Shown here piece after piece: positions 6,000 through 53,813 of a DNA stretch of 64,000 bases (its first letter is position 1; each line of letters begins with the position of its first letter). Origin of the DNA: an uncultured Planctomycetota bacterium (GTDB taxonomy: Bacteria; Planctomycetota; Phycisphaerae; SM23-33); NCBI GenBank assembly GCA_903892515.1, contig CAITIS010000001.1:77552-141551 (forward strand). Direction: 5' to 3'. Made by a program: the position numbers and the translations under genes. The notes beneath the pieces were generated by a model. That model searched no databases and had not been told where the DNA came from. It was given only the letters and a program-made list of their open reading frames with translations.

Positions 6000-7142
6000 C
6001 TACAGCACCGAATCAAAGCGGTGCAGCGGCGTGGGCCGGCTGGGGCTGAAGCTCGTAATCTCGACGATCTCGGCGGTGATGGCCTCCCCAGATGACTCGC
6101 TCAGGCAGCGTTCGGCGACCGCCCGGAGATCGCCCGGATCGATCCGCACACGGGCGTTCACCACCAACAGGGCCCTGCTCTCGCCGGCGATACTGCCTTG
6201 CAGCGAGGGCTGGCCGGTGTTGCTGGTCAGGCCGATCTTGAGCTTCTGCCCGCCCGACGAGAGCAGCAGCTTCACGTGGGCAATGTCGGCCCCGGCCGCT
6301 GTCAGCCGCATCTGCACCCGCTGCAGCAGGTCCACGCCGAAGGCCTTCCAGTTGATGGTCCCGGCCGAGCTCAGCCGAACCGCCGCATTGAGCCACCCCA
6401 GAGCCGCTTCGCCCGCGGCGTACGTGTCGTAGTCCACCTGGGCGATCCGCTGGCCGACTTTACCGCCGGCCAGAATGGTGTCGAGCCACTGGGCCAACCC
6501 CGCGCCCGTCGCCGCTGACAACGCAGACACCGGAATGCCGGGGAACTCCGCTTTGACCCGCGCCTTGATGCCATCGGCCTCCTGCGAACTCAGCGTGTCG
6601 AGCTTGTTCAGCACGATCAGGTCGGCCTCTTCGATCTGCTTGCGATAGATGTACCGGACCGATTCGTCCTGAGATTCTCCCGGCGAATCCGCCTTGCCAG
6701 CCCCCGTCGCCTGGCGACCGCCCGCCTCACCGCCGGCGACGTTCTGCATGAAGCTGGCCGGATCGATCAATACGCTGTAGGGCGAAAGGTCGAAGATGTC
6801 GCGGCAGAGCTTCTTCATGGGTTGCAGCACGGTGGCCGACAGGTCGGTGCAGCTGCCCACGGGCTCGCCGATGATCACGTCGGGCGCAAAGGACCCGATG
6901 AGCTGATCGCACACGTACAGCAGCCGATTGAAGGCGCAGCAAAAGCACGCCCCGGCCACTTCCTTGACCTCCCGGCCGGCCTGCTGAAGGATCTCGGTAT
7001 CGACCAGATTGGCGGCCTGGTCGTTGGTGATCAGGCCGACCTTCTGGCCGCGGCGCGTGAGTTCCTCAGCCGCACGGGCCAGCAACGTGGTCTTGCCCGC
7101 GCCGAGAAAACCCCCGACGATGATCATCTTGACCTTGTTCAT
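6000..7142 (-). CDS. CobW/HypB/UreG-family (G3E) GTP-binding protein
   Basis: GGFLGAGKTTLLARAAEEL (Walker A), GACFCCAFNRLLY (CxCC metal motif), EADLIVLNKLD (NKxD). Confidence 0.88.
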   Translation of the reverse strand: MNKVKMIIVGGFLGAGKTTLLARAAEELTRRGQKVGLITNDQAANLVDTEILQQAGREVKEVAGACFCCAFNRLLYVCDQLIGSFAPDVIIGEPVGSCTDLSATVLQPMKKLCRDIFDLSPYSVLIDPASFMQNVAGGEAGGRQATGAGKADSPGESQDESVRYIYRKQIEEADLIVLNKLDTLSSQEADGIKARVKAEFPGIPVSALSAATGAGLAQWLDTILAGGKVGQRIAQVDYDTYAAGEAALGWLNAAVRLSSAGTINWKAFGVDLLQRVQMRLTAAGADIAHVKLLLSSGGQKLKIGLTSNTGQPSLQGSIAGESRALLVVNARVRIDPGDLRAVAERCLSESSGEAITAEIVEITSFSPSRPTPLHRFDSVL

Positions 7143-7217
7143 ATTCTGCGGTCCTGCGCTCCTGCGCGGGTTCAGCAGTTATCGCGACGCAAACTCTCGC
7201 GTGTTCGCTGCACCGTT

Positions 7218-7505
7218 CTACACGCCCTCGACCGCCAGCAGCGTGCCCTCGGCCGCGCCTGCGCGAAGCTTCTTGGCTTGCTGGTACTCCGGCGAGTGAT
7301 AGAATTCCTGCGCCTTCTCCAGCGAGGGGAATTCCATCACCACGACCCTTCCGGTCTCGGCCGGGCCTTCCAGCGTGACCGACTTGCCGCCGCGGACCAG
7401 GTACGTTCCGCCATACTGGGCAATGATGGCCGGCACCAAGGCCGCGTACGTCTTGTACCGTTCCGGGTCGGTCACGGTCACGCGGACGATGACATAGGCT
7501 TTCAT
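7218..7505 (-). CDS. DUF1330 family protein
   Basis: MKAYVIVRVTVTDPERYKTYAALVPAIIAQYGGTYLVRGG...VVMEFPSLEKAQEFYHSPEYQQAKKLR. Confidence 0.85.
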   Translation of the reverse strand: MKAYVIVRVTVTDPERYKTYAALVPAIIAQYGGTYLVRGGKSVTLEGPAETGRVVVMEFPSLEKAQEFYHSPEYQQAKKLRAGAAEGTLLAVEGV

Positions 7506-7631
7506 GACTTGTTCCCAAAACTGGTTTCATAGCCGTCTCACGCCCCGCCCTGGGGCGCGAGATGCGTGAGAAGACGTCGATTTTGGCCGCAACATCCACA
7601 GCCGAGGGCGGCTGTGCCACGGGAAAACCAC

Positions 7632-8516
7632 CTATCCCTTTCTGCGCGGGGGCCGCCTCGGCCGGCCGGGACGCCACTTGTTCCCCGGCGCCTCTGCGGC
7701 GGATGCTTTTCCGCGGGCAGGCCTGCCGCGCGTGGGCAGAACGCTCGCGGGGCCACGGGCGTGCGGGCCGTGAGCCACGCCGCCGTCCAGCCCGGCCGAG
7801 CGGCGCAGCAGGGATATCTCGGCCTTGTTCAGGAGCCGGAAGCGCCCGACCTTCAGACCGCGGTCGTCCAGCGGGCCGATGGAACTGCGGTGCAGCCGCT
7901 TGACCTTGTAGCCCAGTTGCAGCAGCATCCGCCGGACCTGGCAATTCCGCCCTTCGGCCACCTTGACCTGCAGCAGGCTCTCGTCGTGCCCGCCGCGGAT
8001 GAGCTGCACTTTGGCCCCGGCCCGTCGCCGACCGGCCACGAACAGCCCGGCCCGCAGCTTGTCCACGTGCTCGGGCGTCATCACGCCGTCGATGCGGGCG
8101 ACGTACGTCCGCTCGACCTCGTAGCTGGGGTGCGTCAGCCGTTGCGTCAGTTCGCCGTCGTTGGTCAGGACGATCAGGCCCGTCGAGCCCTCGTCCAGCC
8201 GGCCGACGCAGTACACGCGGCAGTCCAGCCCGCTCACCAGGTCCACGGCCTTGGGGCGGCTGCGGCCCGGCTCGTCGCGCTGGGTGCAGATGACGCCGCG
8301 CGGCTTGTTCAGCAGCACGTACACCTTCTCCTCGGCGCGCTTGCGCACCAGTTCGCCGTCAACGCGGATCTCGTCGCCCGGCTCACAGAAGCACGGCAGC
8401 GAGGTCACCAGATCGCCGTTGACGGTGATGCGACCTTGAAGGATCATCTCCTCCACGTCGCGCCGCGAGGCCACGCCGGCTTCGGACAACATTTTCTGAA
8501 TTCGAACTTTTTCCAT
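7632..8516 (-). CDS. RsuA/RluB-type rRNA pseudouridine synthase (S4 domain)
   Basis: MEKVRIQKMLSEAGVASRRDVEEMILQGRITVNG (S4), VGRLDEGSTGLIVLTNDGEL; internal start chosen at 8516. Confidence 0.88.
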   Translation of the reverse strand: MEKVRIQKMLSEAGVASRRDVEEMILQGRITVNGDLVTSLPCFCEPGDEIRVDGELVRKRAEEKVYVLLNKPRGVICTQRDEPGRSRPKAVDLVSGLDCRVYCVGRLDEGSTGLIVLTNDGELTQRLTHPSYEVERTYVARIDGVMTPEHVDKLRAGLFVAGRRRAGAKVQLIRGGHDESLLQVKVAEGRNCQVRRMLLQLGYKVKRLHRSSIGPLDDRGLKVGRFRLLNKAEISLLRRSAGLDGGVAHGPHARGPASVLPTRGRPARGKASAAEAPGNKWRPGRPRRPPRRKG

Positions 8517-8517
8517 G

Positions 8518-9469
8518 TCAACCTTCCGGCAGTGTGATTTCCAGTAACTCCATGTCCTCTTGCACGCGCAGCACCGGCTGCTCCAAGCCCGCCGGCAGCA
8601 GCAGCGTCTGGCCCAGGCCGATCGACGCCTGGCCGGAGTAATGCTCGCACTCCAGCCGCCCGCGTCCACGCAGATTCATCCACGCCACGCACCGGCCGTG
8701 CGCCAGCTTATGCTCGCCCGCGGGCAAGCACCGCTTGGCCACCGTGAAATACGGCGAGGCCACCAGCACCTCACCGGCCGCTCCGGGCACGGGTTGGGCC
8801 GGCGTAAAGTGAATCGACTCCATCGCCTCTTTCACGTGGATGGGCCGGCCTCTGCCCCAGTCGCTCACGCGATACGTCGTGTCGGAGGGCTGCTGAATCT
8901 CCGCCACCACCAGGCCCGAGCCCATGGCGTGAACCGTGCCGGCGGGCAGGTGGAAGAAATCGCCGGCCTTGACGTCCACGCGCTCGACCAGTTCGGCCAA
9001 CAGTTGTTCGCCATTGGGCTTGGCCAGGGTCTGCTCAAAATCCTGCCGCGTCACGCCGGGTCTACAGTCCTTCAAGATGTAGCCGTCGCGGCTTTCCAGA
9101 ATGTACCAGCACTCGGTCTTGGCCGCAGAGCCCAGCCGCACCGCCGTCGCCTCGTCGGGATGAACCTGCAAGCTGAGAATATCGTTGGCGTCGAGCAACT
9201 TCAGCAGCAGCGGAAAGCGCTGGCCATTGACCAGCTTCACGCCGCCCAGCAGCGATTGGCCGCGTTCCTTGATGATGTCCTGAATGCTCTTGCCGGCATC
9301 GTTGCCCTCGGCCACCAGCGACTGGCCTTCACGCAGATCGGCCAATTCCCAGCTCTCGCCGACGCGGGCGTCCTGTCGCAGCGGCCGGCCAAAGAGCCGC
9401 TCCAGCGCCCTGCCGCCCCAGATCGTGGGCTTGTACAACGGCGTGAACTTGTACGGATGAATTCCTATC
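8518..9469 (-). CDS. manA: Class I mannose-6-phosphate isomerase
   Basis: HPYKFTPLYKPTIWGGRALERLFG, LLLKLLDANDILSLQVHPDEA, PAGTVHAMG; GTG start proposed. Confidence 0.87.
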
Positions 9470-9603
9470 ACGATCTCACCTGTTCTTAAACACTGTTTCT
9501 GCGTTCGAGCCAACAGGAGATTCTACAGCCTGGCGAGCCCGTTGTCTTGCCACGGCTGACGGTTTCGGCGTACACTTCTTGGCCTTAAGTAAAGGAAACC
9601 GTT

Positions 9604-10026
9604 ATGACCGAACAACCGGCCGAGCAGCCCAAACCCGTCGAACCCGCCAAGCCCGCCGAGCAGCCACAGGCCGCCGAGGCAGCCAAGCCCACCATCGTGT
9701 ATGACGATTTCGCCAAGCTGGACCTGCGCGTGGGCAAGGTGCTGGCCTGCCGCGAGCACCCCAACGCCGACAAGCTGATCGTGCTGGACGTCGACCTGGG
9801 CGGCGGCCAGGTGCGGCAGATCTGCGCCGGCCTGAAGGCCTACGTGCAGATGGACCAGATGGTGGGCAAGAACATCATCGTGGTGGCCAACCTCGAACCG
9901 CGCCGCATGCGCGGGCTGGACAGCCAGGGCATGCTGCTGGCGGCAACGCACTTTGAAGGCGAGCAGCAGCGCGTCACGCCGCTGAGCATCGACCCGGCCG
10001 TGCCGCCGGGCTCGAAGGTTTCGTAG
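9604..10026 (+). CDS. tRNA-binding domain protein (MetRS beta-subunit/CsaA/EMAPII-type)
   Basis: FAKLDLRVGKVLACREHPNADKLIVLDVDLGGGQVRQICAGLKAYVQMDQMVGKNIIVVANLEPRRMRGLDSQGMLLAA. Confidence 0.9.
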   Translation: MTEQPAEQPKPVEPAKPAEQPQAAEAAKPTIVYDDFAKLDLRVGKVLACREHPNADKLIVLDVDLGGGQVRQICAGLKAYVQMDQMVGKNIIVVANLEPRRMRGLDSQGMLLAATHFEGEQQRVTPLSIDPAVPPGSKVS

Positions 10027-10072
10027 CGTTCCAGGCCGACCGTAAAAACCCGCGTCAAACGGCGGCAGGAAC

Positions 10073-10187
10073 GGTTGCCAAAAGCCTTTCCCGATTGGAT
10101 GGTGGGTTTCCTAACCCGCCACCCTTGTCACATGGACGTGGCGGGTTGGGACACCCGCCACGCGGATGTCGGTAATTGCTCTAGTTA
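10073..10187. repeat. Dispersed palindromic repeat family B, copy 2
   Basis: ttgccaaaagcctttcccgattggatggtgggtttcctaacccgccaccc...gtggcgggttgggacacccgccacgcgg...gtaattgctctag. Confidence 0.75.
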
Positions 10188-10188
10188 C

Positions 10189-10304
10189 TCTGTCCGGCCC
10201 AGATTGTCGGGTGCCACACCTGCGGCGTTTGCAGGTGTGTAAACGGCACGGCTGCAAACACCGCAGCCGTGGCACCCACATTATTGCCCGGACAGAGTTC
10301 TAGT
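10189..10304. repeat. Compound inverted repeat (family C)
   Basis: ctctgtccgg...gggtgccacacctgcgg...ccgcagccgtggcaccc...ccggacagag. Confidence 0.7.
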
Positions 10305-11556
10305 CAAACCCGGCCGGGCTGGGGGCCGGGGCCGCCGGCGCGGGCGGAGCCTTGCGGGCTGGCCGGGGTGGCGCGGGAGCGGCGGCGGGCTTGGGAGCCT
10401 CTTGCACAGATGGCTTGCTCGGCACGGCAGGCTTGCTTGGCACAGCCGGTTTGATCGGCTCGGCAGGCTTGGTCTGCGCGGATGGCTTGGCCGGAGCGGC
10501 CGACGCCAATACCGCCGGCTGCTTGAGCGAGTATCGTTTCACGACCTGGCCGGTGCGGCAATCCACCACGCAGGCCAGGCTGCTGGCCCGCTTGAGCACC
10601 GGCTGCCGCAGCGTGTCATCGCCCGTGATCTCCAAGCTGGGCAGGTACAGCAACCGCTGCGAATCAGGCGAGAAGCACGCCTCGGTCTGCTTGCCGGCCT
10701 GGCCCAGCGCCTTCTTCTGGCCATTCAGCGAAACCAGTTGGAGCTTGCCATCTTCCCACAGGGCCAATTCCCGCCCGTCGGCTGAACACGCCAGCACGTG
10801 CTTGCCGTCCATCCAGCCATCGCGCCAGATCTCCTTGCCGTCGGCGAAATTGACGGCCCGGACATCGCGCCCGTTCTTGCCCGTCAGGAACAGCACCGAC
10901 GAGGGCGGCTGGGTCGCCTCGTGCAGCGGATACAGCCCTTGCAGGGTCCACAGCGTCTGGCCCTTCCAGGTGCGGACGGTGGCTGAACCTTCGGGCTCGA
11001 AACTGGCATACGCCCTGGCGTCAGAACTGTATTGCGGCAGCAGCGCCGCGCCTCTCCGGCCATACCGGCTCACCTGCCACGTGGCCATGCTGATGCGGAA
11101 GACGGCGTTGTTGGCCGAGGAGGCACAGAACAGCGTCCGGCCACTGGCGCTGAAGCCCAGCGTGTCAATCGGCGCTGCCTTTGCCAGCGTGAGGGTGTCC
11201 TGGCACTGGCCGGTCTGCAGGTCGTAGAAGCTGCATTCGATGTCGTCGCCCTTGGCCACCAGGCAGGCCAGCACCGGTGCCTTGCCGGGCGAGAGGGCGA
11301 ATTCGCTGTCGCGAAAGTGGAAACGGTCCAGATGGAAGAAGCTGCGGCTCTTGCCCGCGGCCGTGTCGTACGCCCCCACCGCCCCGTCGGACCAGACGCT
11401 CACCAGCACGTCATCGCCCAACGCCACCCACGCCACCTCGCCCGCCGGCAGCGTCGCCCGCGGCATGGCCAGGGAAACCGTCGGCGCCAGACACAACGTC
11501 AGCACAACCAAGCAACAGGCTAGCACGCGCAACATCGCAGACCTTTCGTAACTCAT
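10300..11556 (-). CDS. Secreted beta-propeller-like protein with Pro/Lys/Ala-rich C-terminal tail
   Basis: Signal peptide LACCLVVLTLCLAPTVSLA; WD40-like segments; tail AKPSAQTKPAEPIKPAVPSKPAVPSKPSVQEAPKP. Confidence 0.6.
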   Translation of the reverse strand: MSYERSAMLRVLACCLVVLTLCLAPTVSLAMPRATLPAGEVAWVALGDDVLVSVWSDGAVGAYDTAAGKSRSFFHLDRFHFRDSEFALSPGKAPVLACLVAKGDDIECSFYDLQTGQCQDTLTLAKAAPIDTLGFSASGRTLFCASSANNAVFRISMATWQVSRYGRRGAALLPQYSSDARAYASFEPEGSATVRTWKGQTLWTLQGLYPLHEATQPPSSVLFLTGKNGRDVRAVNFADGKEIWRDGWMDGKHVLACSADGRELALWEDGKLQLVSLNGQKKALGQAGKQTEACFSPDSQRLLYLPSLEITGDDTLRQPVLKRASSLACVVDCRTGQVVKRYSLKQPAVLASAAPAKPSAQTKPAEPIKPAVPSKPAVPSKPSVQEAPKPAAAPAPPRPARKAPPAPAAPAPSPAGFD

Positions 11557-12015
11557 TGCTCACAGTATCGGCCAAGGCCGGCGCAAGAACCTACTCATTT
11601 CGGCCGGCGAATGTCGAGCCGTTAGCACTACAACGCTACGAATGGAGTCTTGGCGTTGCGACTGGATTGGAGGCCCGAAGGGCCGGGACGATTGTAGCCG
11701 GGGGCGTGAGCCAGGCTGCAGGGCTGGAATCATCACATCCCCGCAACCCAGGGCGGCCCTCTGCCCTGGGCTGGACTCTTCATGCCATCTTCGGGCTTAG
11801 GCAATGCGGATTGAATCGCCGTCTGCAAAAGCCCTCGGGCTCAGAGAACAGTTTTATTGCACATCCGCACGGCTTATGGCCGAGCCGTTCAACGGGCATC
11901 CACGAGTATCATGCATCTGCAGCCGGTTCTTCTTGTGGCCGCGAACACATATATTCGGTGACCTTCGGCAAGCTCGGCCGGCACACGCTTGTTTGCCGGG
12001 CCGGCATGGGCTAAC

Positions 12016-43609: not shown

Positions 43610-43683
43610 GGGCGATTAGCTCAGTTGGCTAGAGCGCACGGATCACACCCGTGAGGTCACAGGTCCGAGTCCTGTATCGCCCA
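43610..43683 (+). tRNA. tRNA-Val (anticodon CAC)
   Basis: GGGCGATTAGCTCAGTTGGCTAGAGCGCACGGATCACACCCGTGAGGTCACAGGTCCGAGTCCTGTATCGCCCA; anticodon loop ATCACAC. Confidence 0.93.
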
Positions 43684-44986: not shown

Positions 44987-45667
44987 TCAGGCCTCCAGCC
45001 TGCTCAGCAGCCGGGCCACAGACGTAGGATGCCACAGGCTGCCCTGCTCCGTCGCATAGCCTCGCGTGTTCAAGGCGTTTGCGACTGCCCGTACTGAGAT
45101 GATGCCTTCCTTGGCCAAGCTGTCGATGACCGGCCGCATGCGTTCGGCCACAGCCTGCGCCTTGGCCTTGTTCATCGCGGGTGCTGGGCTGTTGCCCCTC
45201 AGCAGGTTCTTGGTGTTGCCCAGCCGCACCCCGCGTGCCTTCAGAGACGCCAGTCCCGCCTTCGTCCGCTTGCTGATTTCCTTGGCTTCATACTCCGCGA
45301 AGGCTGCCATGACCTGAATCATAAACGTGTTCGCCTCTGGCATGTCGGCCGCTCGAAAGTCTACGCCGCTTTCCAGCAAGGCAGAGACGAAGGCGACGTT
45401 CCGGGCCAGCCGGTCGAGCTTCGCGACGATCAGAGTTGCCTTGTGCCTCTTGGCGTGAGCCAGGGCCTTGGCCAGTTCCGGCCGGTCCTTCCGCTTGCCG
45501 CTCTCAACTTCTACGAAGGGCGGGGCGATCATCTCGCCACGGATACGCCCCACGTATTCGACAACCGCCCGCTGCTGTGCCTCCAGCCCCAAGCCTGACT
45601 TTCCCTGCTGATCGGTGGAAACCCGGTAGTAGGCCACGAACCGCTGCACCTTTTCCGCCTTCACCAT
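44987..45667 (-). CDS. Serine recombinase (resolvase/invertase family)
   Basis: FVAYYRVSTDQQGKSGLGLEAQQRAV, LIVAKLDRLARNVAFVSALLESGVDFRAADMPEANTFMIQVMAAFAEYEAKEISKRTKAGL. Confidence 0.92.
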   Translation of the reverse strand: MVKAEKVQRFVAYYRVSTDQQGKSGLGLEAQQRAVVEYVGRIRGEMIAPPFVEVESGKRKDRPELAKALAHAKRHKATLIVAKLDRLARNVAFVSALLESGVDFRAADMPEANTFMIQVMAAFAEYEAKEISKRTKAGLASLKARGVRLGNTKNLLRGNSPAPAMNKAKAQAVAERMRPVIDSLAKEGIISVRAVANALNTRGYATEQGSLWHPTSVARLLSRLEA

Positions 45668-46180
45668 GTCTTGCACTCCCTTCTGTACACTAACACAGAC
45701 GACCGTTCGGAACTTGTGTACACTATAGCAAGCCATCGGCAAGCGCCTTAGGAAATTCGAGGATTTTTCGATGCCTCTGGCCAAGCCCCTTGGGCAGCCC
45801 GTCGTCGATTGTCTTGCACCTTCGGTCAGAAGCGGTCGATGCGCCCGTTCCATCGGCCCCGGCCCGATTCTCGCCGCTAGGGTCAAAGTGACTGTCCGTG
45901 TCAATTAGGTTGCCCCTACGGAATAAGACCCAGCCAACCAAGCCAACGAAGCCACCCCAGCCGCCCCCAGATTCCACCGCGCAGATTAGGTTGCACCTAT
46001 GGAAGAACCGTGAGCCGAAGGCCGCGTCTACCGAACGAAGCGTCTTCCCGGCCGGAAAGTCTCAATCGAAAGCCGTTCGTCGCTCCGCCGCATTCGTTCT
46101 GTGCGTGTCTGTTTGTATCTGTCTTTAGGAACGTGTAGTCCAACCCCAAGCCGCCGCCCAGTCGTGGGCCTGCGCTGATC

Positions 46181-47224
46181 GTGAGGAAACCCTTGTCGAA
46201 ACCCAAAGCGTCGAATTCCGCGTCCCTTAAACTTCGCACCCTTGGAGAACTGTTGGACGAACAGTTCCCCAGCCGCGAACCCTTGCTTGGCTCATGGCTG
46301 CTTCAGCGGCAGCTCTGCATGGTCTATGCAGCCACCGGTGTCGGCAAGTCGATGTTCACTCTTGCAGCCGCCTTGGCCGTTGCTGGAGGCTGCGAATACC
46401 TCGGCTGGAAGGCCCCAGAGGCCCGACGGGTTCTGCTGGTGGATGGAGAGATGGATATTGCGGAGTTGCAGGAAAGGGCCAAGCTATTGATGCAGGCCAT
46501 GCCTGAACTCGACACAGCGACCGCCCGAAAGAATCTCATGTTGCTGGCGCAGCAGGACCAGCCGTTGGAGGTAGCCTTTCCCGATCTGGCGGAAGAGGAA
46601 GGGCGGCTGGAGGTCATCAGCCGCGCAAGGAAGCATAAGGCCGCCCTAGTCATCTTGGACAACTTCTCCACGCTGGCGACGGTGGAGGATGAAAACGACG
46701 CTGCTTCATTCAATCCGTTCATCGACCTTATGCGCAGGCTCAAGCAGGGCGGCACGTCCTGCATCCTTGTCCACCACACCCGCAAGGACGGAGAAACCTA
46801 TCGAGGAACGAGCAAGATTGCCGTCACCTTCGATACGATCATCAAGCTGTCACACCTTGATGGCATCCCGTCACATGGCGGGACGCAATTTGAACTGGAC
46901 TGGGACAAGTTTCGGCGCTTGCGGGATGGCAGCAGTCAGCCGCTTCGAGTGAAACTTGAACCCGGCGCGGATGGCAGCCCTTCGATATGGAACTGCGAGG
47001 TCTCGGACAAGAACCGCCTCAAGGAACTTGTGGGCTTGGTCCAGTCCCTGGAGTACCGCACCCAACTGGACTTGGCTGCTGCCATCAAAGTGTCAGGTGG
47101 CCAGTTGCACAACCTGAAGCGTAAGGCGATAGCAGCGGGCTTCATTACGTCCGAGAAGTGGAAGCAATGCCTCGTCGATGCCAAGCGACTGGACGAGCCA
47201 GATGACCCGGCGGGTGATTTCTAA
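46181..47224 (+). CDS. AAA_25/RepA-like ATPase
   Basis: QLCMVYAATGVGKSMFTLAAALAVAGG (Walker A), RRVLLVDGEMDIAELQER, LVILDNFSTLA, GGTSCILVHHTRKDG. Confidence 0.85.
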   Translation: MRKPLSKPKASNSASLKLRTLGELLDEQFPSREPLLGSWLLQRQLCMVYAATGVGKSMFTLAAALAVAGGCEYLGWKAPEARRVLLVDGEMDIAELQERAKLLMQAMPELDTATARKNLMLLAQQDQPLEVAFPDLAEEEGRLEVISRARKHKAALVILDNFSTLATVEDENDAASFNPFIDLMRRLKQGGTSCILVHHTRKDGETYRGTSKIAVTFDTIIKLSHLDGIPSHGGTQFELDWDKFRRLRDGSSQPLRVKLEPGADGSPSIWNCEVSDKNRLKELVGLVQSLEYRTQLDLAAAIKVSGGQLHNLKRKAIAAGFITSEKWKQCLVDAKRLDEPDDPAGDF

Positions 47225-47291
47225 CCCCACCGCGTCGAACCGGTGGCTTCAAGAGGCGGTTCCGCGCAAGTCGCCTATCCAGGTCATGCGC

Positions 47292-47618
47292 CTTTCCGCG
47301 TCTTCACCGACGCGGCCCCATTGAAGCATCCTGAACCCGTCACGGGCCAATCTTGAAGGGCACACCTTTCCGCGTCTTCACCGACGCGGCCCCATTGAAG
47401 CTATGCCCAGTACCGCTTTCTGGACCCATCCATTTTCCTTTCCGCGTCTTCACCGACGTGGCCCCATCGAAGCGCTCATGGTTGCGATCTTCTTCAGCCA
47501 GAAGTCGATGGCTTTCCGCGTCTTCACCGACGTGGCCCCATTGAAGCCACTGCTCGCGTCTGATCGCGCTGGACGGACAGCCACTTTCCGCGTCCTTATT
47601 GGCGGTGGTCAATGCAGC
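47292..47618 (+). CRISPR. Small CRISPR-like array: four 36-bp repeats plus a degenerate fifth; spacers 36-38 bp; no cas genes in window
   Basis: Repeat CTTTCCGCGTCTTCACCGACG(C/T)GGCCCCAT(T/C)GAAGC at 47292, 47366, 47438, 47512; degenerate ctttccgcgtccttattggcggtggtcaatgcagc at 47584. Intervening sequences all differ. Confidence 0.83.
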
Positions 47619-47787: not shown

Positions 47788-49353
47788 ATGACAGAGCCAT
47801 GTTTTGACGAGGCGGGGCTTTCTTCCCAGCCGCTGGGGCAACCTGAGGCTTTAGGCGACGCTCGCTCCCCGTTTGTTCACCGGTTCAAGACAGCTCGGTG
47901 CCATTATCTATTCGACGTCAACACAAACCGGATTCTCCGCGTCTCGAAAGCGGTGTGGGACATCATCGCCGACGTGGGCGTTCTGGACGAGCATGAGTTG
48001 GTGGCCAAATACTCCTCGACGCATGCGGCTTACACTCTTTCTGCCGCGAGGCGGGAAGTACTGGCTACCCAAGAACGCGGCATGTTCCTGGCGCACCGGC
48101 CGACGCGGATCACAGCGTACCATCAGGCGGATCTCGCAGACCAACTGGATCATAAGCGCGGCCAGCTTATTCTAAATCTCACTGAAGCCTGCAACTTCCG
48201 CTGCTCCTACTGCATCTTTGGCGGCCAGTACTCCAACCGTCGAAAGCACTCTTCGCGTCGCATGGAATGGCAGACCGCGCGGGCCGCGATCGATGACTTC
48301 ATGCAACACAGCGATCAGGCGGAATCCCGTTTCGTCACCTTCTACGGCGGCGAGCCGCTCCTGGAGGATGGGCTACTGGCTCGTTGCGTTGAATACGTGA
48401 AGGCCGAAAACGCGGGCTCGCCGGTGCAGTTCAGCCTAACGACCAATGGCTCACTCCTGGCCGCACGCCGCGCGGCCTACCTTGCTGCGAACGAGTTCTT
48501 CATCATCGTCAGCCTGGATGGTCCCGAGCCTGTGCACGATAGCCACCGCCGGACGCTCCAAGGAGAGCCGACGTGGGCGACCGTGATGGACAACGTGCGA
48601 GCCTTCCTCGACGCCTATCCTAGCTATAAGTCCAACAGTCGGCTTCGGTTTAGTGCGGTAGTGCCACCGGGAGCAGACCTGCGGGAACTTCAGACCTTCT
48701 TCTGCGAACATGATCTATTCACGGAATGCACGGGCGTCAGCGTTTCTCCTCAAAGCCCTAGCGTAGGAGAAGCCCCAGCGCCGGACGATGTGCCGCGTGC
48801 CCGAAGCTACAAGTCGCTCCGCGAGCAGTTCCTGCAAGACTTGGCGAGCGGGCGGGTTGCAGAGTCTTACGGATCACGAGAGACGCTGTTTCTGGCAGCG
48901 GTTTGTGCTGGCGCCTTCATTCGCTTCCACCGGCGCAAGTACCTCTCGCCTCGTCTCCCGGATGTTATGACAGCGCCGTCCACGTGCATTCCCGGGGCGA
49001 GAAGAACGTTCGTCAGCGTTGACGGCGATTACTTTGCGTGCGAGCGCGTTTCCGAAGGGCCAGGCAATTTGATCGGAGACGTGAAGAACGGCATCGATAT
49101 GGGTAAGGTAATGAAAATGCTCGATCAGTGGAATGAATCGAGCGACCAATGTAGGCGATGCTGGTGCCTGCCAATTTGCGCAGTCGGCTGCTTTGCGAGC
49201 GTCGGAGATGATGCTCCGCTCGGGACCAAAGTCAGTGGACAGGCCTGCAGTATCTGCCGCCAACAAAGCCATGAGCTAATGGAAGAGTACTCGGCTGTCA
49301 TGGAACGGAACCCGCACGCGTTCGACTTCGCGCGTCAATTTGAGTCTTCCTGA
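47788..49353 (+). CDS. Radical SAM/SPASM peptide maturase (SCIFF/CcpM-like Cys-rich peptide maturase)
   Basis: N-term HRFKTARCHYLFDVNTNRILRVSKAVWDII; NLTEACNFRCSYCIFGGQY (CxxxCxxC); FVTFYGGEPLLE; C-term Cys cluster CRRCWCLPICAVGCFAS...CSICRQQ. Confidence 0.88.
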   Translation: MTEPCFDEAGLSSQPLGQPEALGDARSPFVHRFKTARCHYLFDVNTNRILRVSKAVWDIIADVGVLDEHELVAKYSSTHAAYTLSAARREVLATQERGMFLAHRPTRITAYHQADLADQLDHKRGQLILNLTEACNFRCSYCIFGGQYSNRRKHSSRRMEWQTARAAIDDFMQHSDQAESRFVTFYGGEPLLEDGLLARCVEYVKAENAGSPVQFSLTTNGSLLAARRAAYLAANEFFIIVSLDGPEPVHDSHRRTLQGEPTWATVMDNVRAFLDAYPSYKSNSRLRFSAVVPPGADLRELQTFFCEHDLFTECTGVSVSPQSPSVGEAPAPDDVPRARSYKSLREQFLQDLASGRVAESYGSRETLFLAAVCAGAFIRFHRRKYLSPRLPDVMTAPSTCIPGARRTFVSVDGDYFACERVSEGPGNLIGDVKNGIDMGKVMKMLDQWNESSDQCRRCWCLPICAVGCFASVGDDAPLGTKVSGQACSICRQQSHELMEEYSAVMERNPHAFDFARQFESS

Positions 49354-49464
49354 CACAGCGAAGACTCCGTGCGGTTGCCACAGTCACCCAGTCAACGAAA
49401 CTCGTCGGTCTGGCGAGGCTTCATAGGACGCGGGACGAATATCCCGCGATTGAGGAGAATGTTT

Positions 49465-49662
49465 ATGCCGGTTGCAGAACTCGAACAAGGTGTATCGATC
49501 ATGGAGGTGCCGTTTGGCGAAGGGTGCCTGCACGTATTCAACGAAGGGCCTGACCCGCAGGGCGTTTGCGACTGCCTTTGTACTAGATGCGTGCCTCTTG
49601 CCGTGAAGGTCAGCACCGGCGGGATGACCAGCACCGAGCTTGCCGGATCGCGACCGATGTGA
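49465..49662 (+). CDS. Candidate Cys-rich RiPP precursor peptide
   Basis: MPVAELEQGVSIMEVPFGEGCLHVFNEGPDPQGVCDCLCTRCVPLAVKVSTGGMTSTELAGSRPM; Shine-Dalgarno gaggag 7 nt before ATG; 111 bp downstream of the maturase, same strand. Confidence 0.65.
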   Translation: MPVAELEQGVSIMEVPFGEGCLHVFNEGPDPQGVCDCLCTRCVPLAVKVSTGGMTSTELAGSRPM

Positions 49663-49922: not shown

Positions 49923-51125
49923 TCACTCCGACTGCTTGCTGCGTAGACTGAGGTCACCGTAGATCACGCGATATGAGCCATCACCGGGCAAGCCCCAGTA
50001 GCAGACAACCCGAGAGGCATCTCCGAGTCTTGCGCCGCGTCCCGAATAGTGCCACGCCTGAACTTGCTGAACTTGCCCGATGAACTCCAAACCCTTCAGA
50101 CACGTCCTGAAAGCATCCTTGGCGATTTGATCCATCTCGTATCGAACACGAACGCTCTCGCCCTCATCCACAATCGTTGTCGCGTCCGGCAGACGCCGGC
50201 GGAAATCCTGGAAAACCAAGTTTGCAGCTGTGGCACTGTCTAGCGTGTCAGGAAAGGCCCCATCCGAGAGGGTGACGCACACCCGAAGCAACTCGATAAG
50301 CGACTGCTCGTTTATCGGGCCGCCGTTAACACGCAGTACGTATCCTGCCGGAAGCTCAGTCGAGAATAGGGATGGCTCGATCGGTTCGTTCCAAACGAAG
50401 TGCGTCATCACCTCCACCACGCCATCCTGGCCTGTTCCTGAAGGCCTGATTTCAACGCGCAGCGGCATCTCAGTTACTTCGTCGGCCCAAATCTTGATAG
50501 CCACCGCGTTCTGCGCCACCTCGTATATCTTCGTCCTATGTCCGTCCAGCATCTCGCGGCCGATCAGCCTGCCGCTATCAACGTGAATCCGGCGAAGCCT
50601 GTCCAAGAAATCGCGGTCTATGCCACCGGCTGAATTCGAGACGAGCGAAACGCCCTTCTTTTCGACAAGATTCAACGATACTTCAACATGGCGTTCATCA
50701 TCGCGAACGAAGACATGATCATCCGAGACAATGCGAACGTGCTGAGGCACAGCGTAAACTTGCAGACGATGCTTCGGCTGGCCAGGGATGCAAAGGTCTC
50801 GCCAGAAACTGACGCTTGTCGCAGCCCTCACGTTGGCGATCACAGCGGCCAGGTCGGCAGACGCAACGCCTGTGCCGCCCCCCAGCATCCACCAGCACCC
50901 AAAGGCCAGAACTGCCACCGCAGCCGCGGCCCACACAAGACGCCCCAGGTGCAGACTCTTTCGAGGGCACTGGAGCTGCGTGGACTTGGCTGTCTCCCGG
51001 GCTTGGGCCTGGGTCAGTAGACGTGCCCTCAGCTGCGCCTTAAAGGCGTTGTCTTGGTCGTCTACACGCACCGACTGAAACAGCTTACGCAGGTCGTCGT
51101 CTCGTTCGATCGAATCATGCTTCAT
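49923..51125 (-). CDS. Membrane anti-sigma-factor-like protein
   Basis: Cytosolic N-term, TM helix LVWAAAAVAVLAFGCWWML, outer-membrane-lipoprotein-sorting-like C-domain; overlaps the ECF sigma gene. Confidence 0.55.
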   Translation of the reverse strand: MKHDSIERDDDLRKLFQSVRVDDQDNAFKAQLRARLLTQAQARETAKSTQLQCPRKSLHLGRLVWAAAAVAVLAFGCWWMLGGGTGVASADLAAVIANVRAATSVSFWRDLCIPGQPKHRLQVYAVPQHVRIVSDDHVFVRDDERHVEVSLNLVEKKGVSLVSNSAGGIDRDFLDRLRRIHVDSGRLIGREMLDGHRTKIYEVAQNAVAIKIWADEVTEMPLRVEIRPSGTGQDGVVEVMTHFVWNEPIEPSLFSTELPAGYVLRVNGGPINEQSLIELLRVCVTLSDGAFPDTLDSATAANLVFQDFRRRLPDATTIVDEGESVRVRYEMDQIAKDAFRTCLKGLEFIGQVQQVQAWHYSGRGARLGDASRVVCYWGLPGDGSYRVIYGDLSLRSKQSE

Positions 51126-51735
51126 GACGCGCCCCCAGTTCTTTTCGCAGTTTCCGAATCGCTCGCGAGAGGGTCACTCTGACCGTGATCGGTTTCATCT
51201 TCAAGCGGTCGGCGAGCTCTTCAAGGTCAAGCCCCTCAAAATAGCGTAGGACCACCACGTCTTGCTGGTTCGGCTTCAGCTTCAAGATCGCCCCGTACAA
51301 AACAGGCCAATCGAGCCTGTCGAAGATCGCTTTCCCGTGTCGTTGCCCTTCCCGTTGCCTTGCTACTTCCTGTAGGATCTCAGTCCGTCGCCTTTCGGTC
51401 CGAACCTGGTTGGTGACGACTGTGTTCGCGGCCGCGTACAGCCACCTGACGACCCCTTCCTGCGTCTTGTCCTTAAGGGAGTCGAACTCTTCGATCATCC
51501 TGGCAAAAACCGCGGATGTAGCATCCTGCGCCACCTCGCGCTTAAACAAGCGGCACAGGCAATAGCGGTGAATCCTGTCGAAAGACTCCTCGTAAATCCC
51601 CATCATCCGCTGCGTGTCGCTAGACCGAGCGACACCAATTTCACCCGGCTTGACAGGCTCAACGGACATGCTTTCAGAAGAAGTGACGCGCTGTGAAGGG
51701 GTTTTGTTACAGGCTGACAGCATCGATCCAAACAT
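51115..51735 (-). CDS. ECF-type RNA polymerase sigma factor
   Basis: YCLCRLFKREVAQDATSAVFARMIEEFDSLKDKTQEGVVRWLYAAANTVVTNQVRTERRRTE...LKPNQQDVVVLRYFEGLDLEELADRLKMKPITVRVTLSRAIRKLRKEL. Confidence 0.88.
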   Translation of the reverse strand: MFGSMLSACNKTPSQRVTSSESMSVEPVKPGEIGVARSSDTQRMMGIYEESFDRIHRYCLCRLFKREVAQDATSAVFARMIEEFDSLKDKTQEGVVRWLYAAANTVVTNQVRTERRRTEILQEVARQREGQRHGKAIFDRLDWPVLYGAILKLKPNQQDVVVLRYFEGLDLEELADRLKMKPITVRVTLSRAIRKLRKELGARHEA

Positions 51736-52880: not shown

Positions 52881-53813
52881 TCAGTTCACATCCCAGATGC
52901 AGTTGGGATCGCCGGTATTCATGGCGTCCAGTCGCCTGGTGTCACAGTTTCGCACGCACCCATCCAGGAACAGGCAATTCGTCCCGAGATGGCGATCAGC
53001 AAAACGTTGCGGATTCCCCGGACACATCGGTTTGCCCGGGACAACCCATTGGAGGCAGTCGGGAGGAAATAGGCTGGAACATCCTATTTTGCCAAACTCG
53101 CTGGGGTAGGTGGGCACGTTGTTGGTGAAGTAGCAGTCAGCCGCGTAGACGCTGTTCGCCGGGTCCGTCCATGACACGCCGGGGATTGTCGAGTAGGCGA
53201 AGTTCATGGTGGGATAGCCGAAGTAGTAGGGTCGTTCCCAGTTGAGATCGTCGGGGTAGTAGTCGGTATAGTAATTGCCATCGCAGGCCACGGTTTTGTA
53301 GCCAAGCAGCGATTCCTGAAAGATGATGCCGTAACTGCCCTTGCTCAGTGTGCCGGTATCCACATTGACGTGGGTGATGCTGGTGAGATCCTCATCGCAT
53401 CTCACGCGTTCCGTCGGCCGGGCGGTGGGGCAGTCGAAAAGCTTGTACGTGCCATATGGCAGCAGGCTCGCCCACCATGATTTCCAGGGATGCGCCTCGA
53501 CGATGCCGCATCCCAGATCGCAATCTTCCAGCGACATGTTGGCCGGGGTGATCGGAGCCCAGTCGCCGTAGTCGCCTTGATACATCGCCAGCGCAGAGCC
53601 CAAGCCTTTGAAGTTGTTCATGCACACGGTCCGGCGGGCCAGCAGCTTGGCCTGGCTCAGGCTGGGCAGCATCATCGCCAGCAGCAGGGCTATGATGGCC
53701 ACAACCACGAGCAGTTCGATCAGGGTGAAGCCAGCGCAGCGTCTCCTGCGGCCGCAGGCGCGGCGCAAAACACTACCAAGACTGCCGTAATTATCGCAGC
53801 CCGGACTCGACAT
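52881..53813 (-). CDS. Prepilin-type N-methylation protein (H-X9-DG-like)
   Basis: [80 protein letters not shown]. Confidence 0.9.

Follow-up and report, generated by a model that had tools for sequence, protein, structure and literature searches.

A likely thioether RiPP cassette in Phycisphaerae: a CcpM/RumMC-like radical SAM maturase and a cysteine-rich peptide beside an ECF sigma factor

A radical SAM/SPASM maturase and a 65-aa cysteine-rich peptide, encoded one behind the other in the genome of an uncultured bacterium of the Phycisphaerae (Planctomycetota), most likely belong to an ECF-controlled thioether RiPP cassette in which the maturase very probably staples the peptide with sulfur bridges; crosslinks, export and bioactivity are what we infer here. 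The pair lies in a 64,000-nucleotide stretch of DNA, hereafter the window (positions 77,552 to 141,551 of contig CAITIS010000001.1), from an assembly of 4.89 Mb in 159 contigs (GCA_903892515.1). We put the probability at about 0.78 that the cassette is switched by its ECF sigma factor and that the maturase, guided by an RRE, uses radical SAM chemistry to staple a four-Cys precursor with thioethers. An earlier note on this DNA had proposed a RiPP system consisting of a radical SAM, CcpM-like maturase and a Cys-rich precursor; the present analysis supports that proposal, and both ORFs are present at the positions given there. The features are listed below, where G399 and G424 are genomes from the same family as the window host and G430, G770 and G699 carry more distant orthologues.

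47788..49353, plus strand: radical SAM/SPASM peptide maturase, CcpM/RumMC-like, 521 aa (profiles, match to CteB, RRE model)
49465..49662, plus strand: putative precursor peptide, 65 aa, labelled P0002 (homologues in G399 and G424, Shine-Dalgarno site, candidates in G430, G770 and G699)
49923..51125, minus strand: anti-sigma-like protein with a single transmembrane segment, 400 aa (weak DUF2092 match, gene overlap, conserved position)
51115..51735, minus strand: ECF sigma-70 factor, 206 aa (profiles; ECF gene near the maturase in 6/6 members)
52881..53813, minus strand: prepilin-type protein with an N-methylation motif, DUF1559-like, 310 aa (orthologues in G424 and G399)

The maturase matches the Pfam profile Radical_SAM (PF04055) with an E value of 1.3e-15 and carries a CX3CX2C motif (C135/C139/C142) that is invariant in eight homologues, followed by a complete SPASM signature (C400-X12-G-X4-C418-X36-C455-X2-C458-X5-C464-X3-C468-X18-C487); all ten radical SAM and SPASM cysteines are invariant across the eight aligned sequences. 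The three motifs claimed beforehand, namely an N-terminal SPFVHRF...YLFDVNTNRILRVS segment, C135x3C139x2C142 and a C-terminal Cys cluster, were all found, and the cluster, earlier described as SPASM-like, proved to be the full seven-Cys signature. Among NCBIfam maturase profiles, CcpM (TIGR04068) ranks first of the curated families at 313.5 bits, its alignment spanning residues 29-506, followed by RumMC (NF035951) at 233, lachnocin at 160, PapB and QHNDH at 157 each, SCIFF (TIGR03974) at 115.8 and the sulfatase maturase (TIGR03942) at 100 bits; all eight aligned homologues match both the CcpM and the RumMC profile. Therefore, of the earlier label "SCIFF/CcpM-like," the CcpM half holds and the SCIFF half does not (313 for CcpM and 233 for RumMC vs 116 bits for SCIFF). 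The maturase nevertheless scores under the cut-off of every NCBIfam maturase family that it matches (500 bits for CcpM, 720 for RumMC, 425 for SCIFF and 349 for the sulfatase maturase). Because these cut-offs are not reached and the precursor is unmatched, the system falls outside the CcpM and RumMC families: the maturase is CcpM/RumMC-like in its working and a member of neither curated family. An identity as an anaerobic sulfatase maturase was considered and rejected, as the 100 bits against a cut-off of 349 come from an alignment of the core alone; the earlier note had regarded a grouping with these enzymes as fatal to its proposal, and with 100 bits against 313 for CcpM no such grouping was seen.

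The N-terminal RRE covers approximately residues 28-100, and an AF2 model of residues 27-112 (pLDDT 80) has three strands and three helices. The best PDB folds for this model are those of CteB (5WHY/5WGG; E 3.5e-4, TM 0.79), followed by the stand-alone lasso RREs TbiB1, so that the predicted fold points to an RRE at the maturase N-terminus. An AF2 model of the full-length enzyme, made with three sequences, was poor (pLDDT 48.6) and served solely to pick the RRE segment. In a profile comparison, the eight homologues aligned with CteB 5WGG over the RRE, the SAM core and the SPASM domain (E 2.4e-60).

Two kinds of thioether chemistry have to be weighed for this enzyme. Sactipeptide (C-alpha) chemistry seems the likelier by analogy, since the SPASM spacing of the window maturase (CX12GX4CX36CX2CX5CX3CX18C) is nearly that of RumMC (CX13GX4CX36CX2CX5CX2CX18C) and RumC2 likewise has a C-x-C donor pair, Cys22/Cys24, with CxC donors that pair with acceptors in a nested hairpin (PMC8172795). 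The conserved tail of the window peptide past C42 would suit a hairpin of the RumC2 type. Alternatively, the same maturase and peptide could form thioethers to C-beta or C-gamma, like those of freyrasin and the SCIFF peptides. Among solved structures, the nearest is indeed that of the SCIFF maturase CteB, whose type of product is now counted among the ranthipeptides (PMC8326336), and the PapB and QHNDH maturase profiles, at 157 bits each, score above that of the sulfatase maturase. However, RumMC scores higher still (233 bits, against 157 for PapB and 116 for SCIFF), and both the near-RumMC SPASM spacing and the C-x-C donors known from RumC2 (PMC8172795) argue for the sactipeptide side; we consider ranthipeptide chemistry rather unlikely, if still to be taken seriously.

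The window peptide has a PFGEG leader motif (residues 16-20), a C35-x-C37-x-C39-xx-C42 core and a tail of residues 43-65, and it matches no model in Pfam and none in NCBIfam at E values up to 0.1. Its gene is separated from that of the maturase by 111 nt, and its ATG is preceded at ~7 nt by GAGGAG, the Shine-Dalgarno site that had been claimed for it. In G424, whose maturase is 46% identical to that of the window, a 64-aa peptide is encoded 160 nt 3' of the maturase gene on the same strand. In G399 (maturase identity 48%), the maturase contig stops 80 nt past the gene and a 66-aa peptide opens another contig, convergent with genes for an anti-sigma-like protein and an ECF factor; we infer that the two contig ends adjoin. 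Identity to the window peptide is 39% for G399 and 32% for G424, and neither alignment score was reached by any of 2000 shuffles. The three peptides have CxCxCS-C, VK[VI] and a C-terminal S-x-P in common. Although all five cysteines noted earlier are present (C21, C35, C37, C39 and C42), C21 is replaced by Q in both close relatives while the other four are conserved; therefore, the core consists of C35, C37, C39 and C42 (conserved pattern C-x-C-x-C-x(1-2)-C), and the leader, which had been described as Cys-free, is so just up to C21.

Among the more distant orthologues, candidate peptides are encoded upstream of the maturase in G430 (MINTTTFGEG...CLCVFCPCYCPCVCTCGC; maturase identity 43%), G770 (MIDVTNFHE...GCSCGCTCTCGC; 40%) and G699 (MIEKMAFGE...CANGCLNYTC, lacking CxCxC; 35-39%). 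These match the window peptide more weakly, with 29, 28 and 226 of 2000 shuffles, respectively, reaching the observed score; G430 and G770 match each other strongly (0/2000). When the 122-191 small ORFs of each locus were ranked by similarity to the window peptide, the candidate came first in G424, G399, G430 and G770, and not in G699. All six precursors have Shine-Dalgarno sites, and five have the FG[E/Q] leader motif, which reads FHE in G770. Of 2519 ORFs with lengths of 30-130 aa in 281 kb, just 11 contain the CxCxC pattern, and six of these 11 adjoin a maturase of this clade, or of the more distant G556 relative, on the same strand, which is more than chance. Of 2708 small ORFs, 10 have an F[GH][EQ] motif with three or more Cys after it, and six of the 10 are these very peptides, from which the motif had itself been derived. 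Peptides from three relatives found no NCBIfam match at E values up to 0.01. The earlier note had named lack of conservation of the small ORF next to maturase homologues as a refutation of its proposal; the small ORF is kept beside the maturase orthologues. Taken at the level of sequence, these peptides point to a new precursor family in Phycisphaerae that both Pfam and NCBIfam miss.

The maturase is rare, occurring in 3 of 38 genomes of the order (E 1e-25), and in 6 of 397 genomes of the class and 7 of 390 of the phylum (E 1e-30, more distant relatives included). In the maturase tree, the window, G424 and G399 group with support of 98/97, and the six-member clade has moderate support (85/90). 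When the class was searched again from a different centre as an out-of-sample test, no new members came up, and searches of viral contigs and plasmids returned only remote radical SAM proteins and only distant Bacillota relatives, respectively. Searches of open-licence papers brought up no account of planctomycete CcpM-like or ECF-linked radical SAM RiPPs, which is a weak sign of their absence from the literature, and the module would seem to be a family not described so far and under the control of its own switch.

On the far side of the precursor, the anti-sigma-like and ECF genes overlap by 11 nt and run convergent with it. The ECF protein scores above its profile cut-off as a sigma-70 factor; the anti-sigma-like protein has a single hydrophobic segment, a weak anti-sigma profile match (18.9 bits against 100) and a weak DUF2092 match within its extracytoplasmic part. 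In both G424 and G399, the best and only genome match to this protein adjoins the precursor and is convergent with it as in the window, the ECF gene alongside being homologous too, and in G770 a distant homologue adjoins the maturase. An ECF gene lies near the maturase in all six members, G430, G699 and G770 included. As these genomes have 15-64 ECF genes each, from which the chance of one lying within 5 kb was estimated at roughly 4-11% per genome, a chance association across all members is unlikely, even counting the three close genomes as one. The window's prepilin-type gene lies beyond the ECF gene, with a response-regulator ORF in between, and its product is 40-44% identical to those of genes divergent from the maturase in G424 and G399, where the orthologues score 190 and 187 bits vs ~65 or less for the next matches (53 and 15 matches). 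The maturase/precursor pair is part of a conserved module with the ECF, anti-sigma-like and prepilin-type genes, which two relatives likewise keep together. No convincing ECF promoter common to the cassette genes was visible by eye in their upstream sequences, and neither a protease nor an exporter was noticed next to the window cassette; an MsbA-like ABC exporter is encoded next to the maturase in G430 and G699. Directly 5' of the precursor in G430 (L023, 10377-11519) and G770 (L043, 11394-12476) are genes for similar membrane-anchored proteins of 360-380 aa, without a Pfam match, which are possibly an extra component of the system.

The cassette may be envisaged to work as follows. The membrane anti-sigma-like protein would hold the ECF factor until an envelope signal frees it and the cassette is switched on, after which the small gene would be translated into the 65-aa precursor and the predicted RRE of the maturase may bind the leader near its FG[E/Q] motif. 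As in related enzymes, a [4Fe-4S] cluster on C135/C139/C142 would cleave SAM, and the 5'-deoxyadenosyl radical would take hydrogen from acceptors in the tail (residues 43-65), while the SPASM clusters would help to couple the thiols of C35, C37, C39 and C42 to these acceptors. The product would be a nested hairpin with up to four thioether crosslinks, each lowering the mass by ~2 Da, and leader removal and export would fall to enzymes encoded outside the window cassette. Because the maturase is rare, the peptide would most likely end up serving defence or signalling, at the envelope or between cells, and not housekeeping.

The core and the regulators of this module also invite another reading, in which the peptide binds metal or acts as a metallophore, the radical SAM enzyme supplies a ligand or a bond that fixes the conformation, and metal status is sensed through the ECF pair, as through the FecI/FecR-like pairs of methanobactin systems. 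CxCxCxxC resembles thiolate metal sites. An ECF gene near all members, a FecR-type regulator in the G430 neighbourhood and the MbnI/MbnR precedent (PMC3621798) agree with such a role. However, neither a TonB receptor nor a metal transporter was noticed among the ORFs beside the cassettes, and the anti-sigma-like protein of the window had no FecR match in a Pfam search. We therefore judge a metal-binding role improbable.

The prepilin-type gene raises the question of what the maturase acts on. That it modifies another substrate, such as the prepilin-type protein, with the small peptide as guide, regulator or bystander, would agree with the retention of a prepilin-type gene beside the maturase in G424 and G399; yet G430 and G699 retain maturase and peptide without an adjacent prepilin match, the peptide has many cysteines and what looks like a leader motif, and the window's own genome has a paralogous ECF, anti-sigma-like and prepilin-type row (L030, contig C134, 7503-10429; 53%, 36% and 67% identical to the window set, respectively) at which maturase and precursor are absent, which together leave this reading very improbable. 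As the C134 set shows, the sigma/prepilin unit can occur on its own, with no such RiPP beside it. For the thioether RiPP that we favour, one could speculate that the ECF/anti-sigma/prepilin unit recruited a radical SAM RiPP, such that the crosslinked peptide is the signal or effector of a self-contained planctomycete envelope module and acts on, is sensed by or is displayed via this unit; this extension is a doubtful one, and we are not aware that any RiPP has been described as linked to both a pseudopilin and a sigma switch. Finally, the small ORF is short and matches no library family, but relatives preserve its sequence, its position and strand and its ribosome site, which contradicts the idea of a chance open frame.

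Upstream of the maturase lies a CRISPR-like array (47291-47547) in which a repeat of 36-37 nt occurs four times, spaced by 72-74 nt; a fifth, degenerate piece lies near 47592. Of the island setting drawn earlier from this array and the ECF pair, both elements are real; the ECF pair belongs to the conserved neighbourhood, whereas the array has no evident link to the system. It was set aside as a component because the genome has no further copy of its repeat outside this array, even with up to 3 mismatches allowed. Two other contigs carry Cas1 genes, and the array is probably an orphan. Just past a tRNA-Val at 43610, in a region of lower GC, a serine recombinase (minus strand) and an AAA_25 ATPase (plus strand) occupy 44987-47224, which looks like a small integrated element adjoining the cassette. 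These two genes have no match at the relatives' loci, and the same corrinoid-protein/membrane-protein gene pair is found close to the cassette both in G424 and in the window; therefore, the cassette may predate the insertion beside it. The GC content of the 43.7-53.8 kb region is 0.57-0.59 vs ~0.635, and transfer of the cassette is possible.

Other planctomycete loci came to light alongside this one. In L017 (G216, 9547-11581), a CcpM-like maturase is preceded by a 179-aa protein with Tat-like (SRREAILRFGSLGLIGAG) and Cys-rich (CTSFCMCRCGALCSHCGQCGACVCPP) stretches, possibly a RiPP precursor with a secretion-type leader. L044 (G810, 6526-11941), another planctomycete radical SAM peptide system, has two closely similar tandem radical SAM genes and a 159-aa protein that contains repeated RFAAETDE units as well as a Tat-like SRRQF stretch, together with a probable anti-sigma-type protein. 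In L025 (G556, 6264-7870), the frame of a related maturase contains an in-frame TAA and a downstream ORF has MACGCQCSCPSSS, possibly reflecting a decaying system.

Predicting the residues that a SPASM maturase will crosslink remains difficult, and the characterised thioether maturases named in this text are from Bacillota. A Planctomycetota clade in which one maturase family goes with widely differing cores (CxCxCxxC, long CxC runs and, in one case, spread-out Cys) provides natural examples on which to test such predictions. Through the conserved ECF switch, the trigger of such a cluster could be sought in a group that is for the most part uncultured, and the link to a prepilin-type gene makes one ask whether the peptide is displayed or secreted. 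What is new is the placement of a radical SAM/precursor pair within a conserved ECF/anti-sigma/prepilin neighbourhood; the peptide-making strategy itself is known.

Of the known systems, CcpM (TIGR04068) is the top profile and likewise combines an RRE-radical SAM-SPASM enzyme with a short Cys-rich peptide, but the window maturase stays below its cut-off (313.5 < 500 bits) and no NCBIfam model matches the window precursor; the ECF, anti-sigma and prepilin partners lack a counterpart in those Bacillota plasmid examples that were examined. RumMC/ruminococcin C is alike in giving the second-best profile, in precursor length (about equal), in four conserved Cys and in the CxC donors of RumC2. However, the ruminococcin cysteines form two pairs ~17-21 residues apart rather than a tight CxCxCxxC, the window maturase reaches 233 of 720 bits, and its neighbours are of the ECF type. 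The SCIFF system of CteB (ScfB) has a profile match over the RRE, core and SPASM and the same RRE fold (5WHY/5WGG), but the score is 115.8 of 425 bits and the SCIFF precursor has six Cys in forty-five residues, compared with five in the window peptide, four of them conserved. The Apre_1838 system of Anaerococcus prevotii plasmid pAPRE01 has the same arrangement of a related radical SAM gene directly followed by a 65-aa Cys-rich putative sactipeptide; its maturase is only 25% identical, its peptide differs from that of the window, and it is accompanied by two-component and ABC transporter genes instead of an ECF/anti-sigma pair. Methanobactin is, to our knowledge, not made by a radical SAM enzyme, and no TonB receptor was noticed beside the window cassette. 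What it shares with the window is the pairing, in MbnI/MbnR, of an ECF sigma factor and a membrane regulator beside a Cys-containing RiPP (PMC3621798).
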